Positions 20,071 through 38,566 of a stretch of 38,566 nt of DNA are shown piece by piece. A program made the translations under genes and the position numbers. Each line of letters opens with the position of its first letter. The stretch's first letter is position 1. The notes under the pieces were generated by a model. It did no database searches. It was not told the DNA's origin and saw only the letters and a program-made list of their open reading frames with translations. The stretch is from Halorubrum halophilum (lineage in GTDB: Archaea; Halobacteriota; Halobacteria; Halobacteriales; Haloferacaceae), in the NCBI RefSeq assembly GCF_000739595.1, contig NZ_BBJP01000018.1, positions 1-38,566 of the forward strand. Direction: 5' to 3'.

Positions 20071-20080
20071 GTTTATAAGT
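20071..20080 (-). promoter_or_regulatory. TATA-like box for VOC gene
   Basis: ACTTATAAAC on the minus strand predicts a start near 20050 and a leader of about 33 nt before the GTG at 20017. The same decamer occurs at 38496-38505 in the second repeat-element copy. Confidence 0.45.
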
Positions 20081-20115
20081 GGCTGACGGATCGACGGCAA
20101 ACACTTCCAAAGCCC

Positions 20116-20155
20116 CAGTCGCTCGCTGCGCGCTTCAGTCGCTCGCTGCGCGCTT
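20116..20155. repeat. Two exact 20-nt tandem repeats
   Basis: The unit starting CAGTCGCTCGCTGCG is present exactly at 20116-20135 and 20136-20155, with a diverging third unit from 20156 (CAGTCGCTCGCTACGC). It forms the 3' end of the repeat element on the minus strand. Confidence 0.9.
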
Positions 20156-20354
20156 CAGTCGCTCGCTACGCTCGCTCCTTGCAGTGCTTGTCTCGCCGGG
20201 CGTCGTCCTTCCGGGAGACTCCGTCTCCCGTCTTTCCGCTCGCTTCGCTCGCGGAAATCGCGACTGCCCCTTTGAGTCCCGCCCCGCACAGCACCGCACC
20301 TCACGCCTCCCCAGCCTCGCCGCTCGCTTCGCTCGCGGCGTCCCTCGCGCGGCG

Positions 20355-20381
20355 CTCCTCGCGCCCAATGGGCGCTCGGAG
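20355..20381 (-). ncRNA. Hairpin A of repeat element, tandem G-A loop
   Basis: On the minus strand CTCC pairs with GGAG. Inside them a GA faces a GA, then GCGCCC pairs with GGGCGC over an ATT loop. The same layout with a different inner stem is present at 38522-38554. The predicted transcription start from the adjacent TATA box falls at or near the hairpin's first base. Confidence 0.5.
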
Positions 20382-20470
20382 GCGCGCGCCACCGCATTCT
20401 GACTTATAAGTCGTTGCTATCGCCCGAACCCAGTCGATCGACGACCGGCAGCATCCGAGCGGTTCCGGTC

Positions 20471-38495: not shown

Positions 38496-38566
38496 ACTTA
38501 TAAACGAACGCGGTGGCGCGCCTCCGAGCGGCCGCCAAGGGCGGCCGCGAGGAGCCCGCGAGGGAG
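38496..38566 (+). repeat. Structured non-coding repeat element, copy 2 (partial)
   Basis: This is the 5' part of the same element as at 20.1-20.4 kb, in plus orientation and cut by the window edge. TATA-like ACTTATAAAC (38496-38505) is followed by GCGGTGGCGCG (38510-38520). Hairpin A lies at 38522-38554: CTCC pairs with GGAG, GA faces GA, and GCGGCCGCC pairs with GGCGGCCGC over AAG. The inner stem differs from copy 1 but stays paired, which suggests selection on structure. Confidence 0.65.

Follow-up and report, generated by a model that had tools for sequence, protein, structure and literature searches.

The locus and its features

The window analysed here is a 38,566-nucleotide stretch of a Halorubrum halophilum contig, and the element under study lies on its minus strand between a VOC-like gene and an MFS gene, both of which are kept in the six congeners compared. 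An initial annotation of this DNA had drawn attention to three hairpins (A, B and C), each of which reads exactly as it was described. These hairpins are part of a folded core of about 280 nt, and the features of this copy, together with those of a second copy at the window edge, are as follows.

20083..20412, minus strand: whole element (TATA flank, core and tail), the best of 67 matches in its own genome
20403..20410, minus strand: TATA-like palindrome CTTATAAG, read from the sequence, upstream of the core
20262..20396, minus strand: 5' domain (model R1, 131.9 bits), made up of P1, hairpin A, hairpin B and the G-rich junction
20355..20381, minus strand: hairpin A, CTCC / GA / GCGCCC / ATT / GGGCGC / GA / GGAG, from the sequence
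20318..20340, minus strand: hairpin B, CGCCGC GA GC GAA GC GA GCGGCG, an exchangeable cassette judging from the comparison of orthologues with paralogues
20297..20317, minus strand: invariant junction AGGCTGGGGAGGCGTGAGGTG, nearly invariant in alignment A1 and the motif used for counting copies
20262..20280, minus strand: invariant block GGGACTCAAAGGGGCAGTC (alignments A1 and A3), where the 3' domain begins
20270..20273, minus strand: P2 strand AAAG, with its partner CTTT at 20109-20112
20233..20257, minus strand: hairpin C, the first of the two hairpins in an optional module found in some copies only
20213..20229, minus strand: hairpin GGGAGAC GGA GTCTCCC, second half of that module, present also in L002 and L006 and diverged in L057
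20140..20197, minus strand: core of the 3' domain, a ladder arm in which 2-bp steps and tandem G-A steps alternate (R2 match, 46.1 bits, E 2e-8)
20116..20162, minus strand: 20-bp tandem duplication (GCGACTGAAGCGCGCAGCGA), which has remodelled the 3' strand of this copy and is without counterpart in the other copies shown
20083..20112, minus strand: tail CTTTGGAAGTGTTTGCCGTCGATCCGTCAG, conserved
20072..20079, minus strand: second TATA-like box, 3' of the tail, whose spacing from CTTTGG is nearly constant in many copies
38509..38566, plus strand: 5' domain of the second copy, which ends at the window edge and runs on to contig position 38622 (31.5 bits)
38497..38504, plus strand: CTTATAAA, read from the sequence, upstream of the second copy

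Model R1 is a covariance model built from 19 paralogues, the flagged copy among them, and it recognises that copy with an E-value of 3e-30 (the E-values of our covariance models come from a shortened calibration). The second copy, also proposed at the outset (38496-38566, plus strand), rises to 65.6 bits with R1 when it is taken in full (G000:C86:38509-38622). The proposal of a three-hairpin element stands for hairpins A and B, which belong to the core, but not for hairpin C, which is an optional insert. The most extensive tandem G-A architecture is instead found in the 3' domain (20197-20140), which the initial annotation did not list; its observation was real, if understated. In the flagged copy this domain has been remodelled by the two-hairpin insert (20213-20257) and by the 20-bp duplication, and model R2 still finds the ladder core.

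A 107-aa open reading frame on the opposite strand (20079-20402, plus) could in principle mean that the repeat codes for protein. The frame has no NCBIfam or Pfam match, and hairpins differ in length by numbers that are not divisible by three. Because these length changes break the phase, the coding reading is refuted in practice and we assign it a negligible probability, in agreement with the original view that no plausible protein is encoded.

Architecture of the family

Among the aligned paralogues a series of blocks is fixed, namely GCGGTGGCGCG, the GA opposite GA in hairpin A, GCGAGGGA, GAGGCTGGGGAGGYGTGAGG, GGGACTCAAAGGGGCAG and CTGGGGCTTTGG, and the arms between these blocks vary freely in both sequence and length. 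The 3' domain forms a long arm in which an outer stem of variable sequence leads into a ladder of 2-bp steps, which have an A-A mismatch or tandem G-A steps between them, with a short loop as its cap. The two-hairpin insert is carried only by some copies (L002, L006 and L057).

Optional two-hairpin modules (for example GGGCGAGAGC..GCTCTCGCTTGCAACCGGAC..GTCCGGTGACAGC) sit in the hairpin tips or arms of different copies and resemble small hairpin-targeting elements; examples are hairpin B of L203, L022, L061 and L205 (hairpin A), and positions 20213-20257 of the window. A tail unit of about 54-57 bp (GGCTGGGGCTTTGGAGGTGTTC...) is also repeated in tandem up to five or six times behind some copies, as in L201, L203 and L205 upstream of an MFS gene and in the tails of many other copies.

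Compensatory change maintains the fold on one strand

The existence of the fold, and of a family that shares it, is nearly certain, given that compensatory changes in many copies exceed both shuffled and slid controls. In alignment A2, which holds 105 copies from many species and, being fitted to the model, is biased toward it, 97.0% of the cells of the 5' domain are paired compared with 80.1% in shuffles. Double changes occur in 19 of its 20 pairs (266 double-change cells versus 67 when shuffled), and the covariation score is 0.362 versus 0.109 for shuffled and at most 0.041 for slid alignments. Inner P1 pairs covary in A2, and outer P1 hardly covaries at all. Because A2 leans toward its model, the 3' domain was aligned by MAFFT without structure, and from this alignment RNAalifold predicted the ladder unaided, with 20 of 28 pairs doubly changed. 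Under the named structure of the 3' domain, 94.1% of cells are paired, 28 of 39 pairs are doubly changed, and 250 double-change cells are observed versus 78 in the control. P2 alternates between AAAG/CTTT and GAAG/CTTC among relatives (A3 column pair 1-117, six double changes). Since alignment cells are not independent, we attach no exact probability to this covariation. Covariation across many copies was the test that the initial annotation had chosen for itself, and it is strong.

The tandem G-A steps are constant or nearly so. Hairpin A keeps its two GA steps in 97/98 and 94/98 sequences while its stem pairs covary, and the ladder steps (columns 51-52, 55-56, 65-66 and 69-70) are GA in 51/51 sequences, even though the 2-bp steps that flank them take up to nine forms (GC/GC, GG/CC, AG/CT, GT/AC, AC/GT and more). 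Moreover, G-U pairs are more frequent than A-C pairs, with 89 versus 23 in the alignments dominated by Halorubrum and 58 versus 22 in those of distant copies, and selection therefore sees the minus strand, the one originally named. Both domains covary in the distant copies as well, with 87.5% and 91% of cells paired.

It is known that quasi-palindrome correction renders hairpin arms complementary without any selection on RNA, and the apparent covariation might accordingly reflect template switching at the DNA level instead of selection on a folded strand. However, such correction would convert G-A mismatches to Watson-Crick pairs, whereas these mismatches are invariant, the 2-bp steps between them covary and the wobble pairs are skewed to one strand. 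We reject this explanation on the invariant G-A steps and consider it very improbable.

Abundance, distribution and age

A blast-type search of the element's own genome (G000) returned 67 matches among 240 candidates, and at least 150 R1 matches are present there, all 150 scored candidates having passed. The junction motif occurs 160 times in this genome compared with 20 in the reversed control, and similar excesses appear in G026 (161/16) and G029 (72/20). The counts are near background in G017 (18/17), G019 (23/20) and G034 (32/23). R1 matches are present in every congener searched, with these three species nearly devoid of them; their close relatives hold 50-150 copies, such that the three represent natural knock-outs.

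Of 292 genomes sampled across the class, 75 in all have matches at E <= 1e-6, as do 24 of the 77 genera. Many Halorubrum species, Halobellus captivus, Haloparvum and Halorussus are among the named records with matches. Eight non-Halorubrum genomes carry the same skeleton with wholly different stems, and other haloarchaeal families contain diverged copies in which both domains keep their order. The independent model R2 gives a match just 3' of the R1 match, on the same strand, in most of 30 non-Halorubrum loci.

Rfam 15 yielded no match at the gathering threshold for the window, its only hit among 20 loci was to a neighbouring tRNA, and a permissive scan of the element matched no family. No phage record matches the element. 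Plasmid records gave two weak partial matches, and the single matching Halorubrum plasmid record has an unannotated copy between two convergent genes. A description of the element was not found in the literature covered, which takes in few subscription papers or preprints. The suggestion of an unnamed family thus holds: this is a genuine and ancient family, undescribed within the literature covered. It is also dispersed in the manner of a mobile element, as had been supposed.

Genomic sites and the reshuffling of hairpins

The copies lie between genes and at orthologous sites, and they avoid regions with divergent promoters. By approximate gene calls, 46 lie between convergent, 58 between tandem and 14 between divergent genes, and in tandem settings neither direction is preferred ((+,+) 25 versus (-,-) 33). 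At the window site, three of the six congeners have a full element, two have remnants and one has almost nothing. At eight further sites compared across nine relatives, the place and orientation of the element are the same in most, some copies have been shortened by internal deletions, and G017 and G019 have at several sites lost the element or kept no more than a stub. Such stubs persist at some orthologous sites in these two genomes.

The genes flanking orthologous copies are mostly about 85-97% identical, and hairpin B similarity is 0.61 among orthologues and 0.60 among paralogues (p = 0.42). Orthologous B hairpins are no more alike than those of unrelated copies, and the same alleles of a hairpin reappear at other sites and in other species. 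Hairpin sequences are thus reshuffled among the copies, which implies that they were exchanged or repeatedly replaced.

That copies have stayed so long at orthologous sites is more reminiscent of a locus maintained by the host than of a recently active element, and counts against the mobile-element reading favoured below. One could imagine a host-useful RNA or 3'-end element that is kept in many copies, for example at convergent gene ends, and homogenised by gene conversion. This would agree with the 46 of 118 copies between convergent genes, the stability at orthologous sites and the near-invariance of the conserved blocks. However, neither transcript direction is favoured in tandem settings, and a U-rich terminator pattern was not seen. 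Furthermore, G017 and G019 have almost no copies, with remnants at some sites, and the element is therefore dispensable. On balance we regard a host-useful role of this kind as improbable.

The upstream TATA-like box

The element had been proposed to be led by a promoter. The TATA palindrome is indeed there, and TATA-like boxes are enriched in Halorubrum, where 83 of 150 Halorubrum-type copies carry a TATA-like hexamer at -27 to -11 relative to P1 and A/T enrichment upstream of P1 peaks at 13-20 nt. However, a promoter is not established by these boxes, whose distance varies among Halorubrum copies and which occur in 0/30 copies from other haloarchaeal genera. A second TATA-like box lies 3' of the tail at a near-fixed distance. 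With the usual archaeal TATA spacing, transcription would be expected to start about 10 nt inside P1, and if the box is a promoter, such a start would leave the 5' strand of P1 untranscribed. The weak covariation of outer P1 fits a start inside P1 or hairpin A, where the initial annotation had also placed it, but is suggestive only. In Halorubrum the boxes may be promoters or may be part of the unit described below, and we consider the promoter-led reading doubtful.

Inverted repeats and links to transposases

About a third of copies are enclosed in a longer unit, some 450 bp in length, whose two ends are GATCGATAGCGGGAGTRNGTRT and its inverse. This 22-bp terminal inverted repeat (TIR) occurs at 95 sites versus 0 in the control, forms 34 facing pairs and accompanies 53 of 150 copies, a feature expected of MITEs. 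In almost every case 69-78 nt separate the 5' end of the unit from the core. At one site only G000 and G014 carry a TIR unit; in six other relatives the unit is absent and the site measures 25-44 bp, and no clear target-site duplication was seen there. We also considered TTATAA as a target duplication, given the boxes at both ends of many copies, and found no clean duplication in the flanks. None of eight regions checked contained an autonomous, gene-bearing version of the unit. One of the eight, a 130-bp unit (L370, G000:C81:208972-209101), has both inverted ends and no structured core, and is fused at the TATA boxes.

The main rival to a functional RNA is a fold that works as single-stranded DNA. 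The element would then be a non-autonomous transposon of the REP or PATE kind, and an ssDNA-processing enzyme such as a Y1/HUH transposase would read its hairpins during replication. Hairpins of ssDNA are also stabilised by G-T wobbles and tandem G-A pairs. The element is multi-copy, intergenic and hairpin-rich, and its distant relatives have no conserved promoter, all of which would suit such a transposon. There is also a haloarchaeal precedent in the PATEs of Haloquadratum, which are transposase-free, palindrome-ended and heterogeneous (PMC3119063). On the other hand, TnpB genes are unlinked to the elements: only 2/30 TnpB loci have an element nearby, which does not exceed the expectation from copy density, and a TnpB association was rejected. 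A Y1 transposase association was likewise rejected, with no Y1_Tnp match in copy-rich genomes such as G002, G003, G004, G015 and G018, and a REP/RAYT assignment fails on the same ground. The TnpB result also goes against a PATE or IS200-IS605 derivative, which would share near-terminal palindromes with the TnpA/TnpB transposons of the genome. In addition, the 3' arm, with its many covarying 2-bp steps, is much more complex than palindromes near the termini. We judge action as ssDNA to be rather unlikely, though less so than the other rivals. The element's own genome has 32 matches to the TnpB zinc-ribbon domain and only three to Y1 transposases.

Proposed mode of action and significance

We lean, with modest confidence, toward an ancient, non-autonomous and dispersed haloarchaeal family in which a conserved single-stranded fold of about 280 nt is under selection, probably as RNA. 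The conserved fold consists of the 5' hairpins A and B, the G-rich junction and the long 3' ladder arm. The folded strand would probably act as RNA, made either by read-through or from a promoter close to the 5' TATA box. This RNA may be recognised by a trans-acting protein, and the family would spread or persist as a non-autonomous element whose hairpins are presumably swapped among copies through ectopic gene conversion or replacement. A more specific version is a tentative possibility: class-wide large folded RNAs, borne by a hairpin-swapping non-autonomous element that spreads and persists in very many copies, built on the unusual ladder of 2-bp and tandem G-A steps and served by their own undiscovered protein partner.

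About 150 copies of some 300 nt would fill slightly more than 1% of a genome of 3.7 Mb. The element would thus rank among the commonest non-coding features of Halorubrum, although it is apparently unannotated and unnamed, and it may be a major unexplained component of haloarchaeal genomes. Its very many copies and wholesale hairpin swaps make it an exceptionally rich natural resource on an RNA (or ssDNA) fold, and together with the near-copyless sister species G017 and G019 they open its function and its partner protein to direct test. The ladder of alternating 2-bp and tandem G-A steps is a structural motif worth solving.

Comparison with known systems

The large bacterial RNAs OLE, GOLLD, ROOL and HEARO share with this element a large non-coding fold, strong covariation and conserved unpaired blocks. 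HEARO is likewise multi-copy. In contrast to these RNAs, the present element is archaeal, reaches about 150 copies per genome and has no Rfam match. The REP/RAYT and ERIC/BOX repeats of bacteria are also dispersed, intergenic, hairpin-forming and high in copy number, whereas the fold described here is archaeal, much larger and multi-domain, with invariant tandem G-A steps and no RAYT partner found. MITEs resemble the third or so of copies that sit between 22-bp inverted ends in the unit of about 450 bp, in which no ORF was found. However, most copies in the own genome have no TIR, conservation lies in the internal fold and not in the ends, and no clear target duplication was seen.

The PATEs and SMRs of Haloquadratum walsbyi are haloarchaeal and transposase-free, exist in many heterogeneous copies with palindromes, and harbour other small elements inside those palindromes (PMC3119063). 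PATEs resemble IS605 ends and have no inverted termini (PMC3119063), whereas our element has no TnpB/TnpA link, has a covarying internal fold and occurs in a TIR-bounded form. The repeats of halovirus HF2 are also intergenic, with AT-rich promoter-like motifs (PMC8707807). These repeats are 29-58 bp long, viral and promoter-carrying (PMC8707807), in contrast to an element that phage records do not match. Within the literature covered, the PATEs and the HF2 repeats are the closest described systems.
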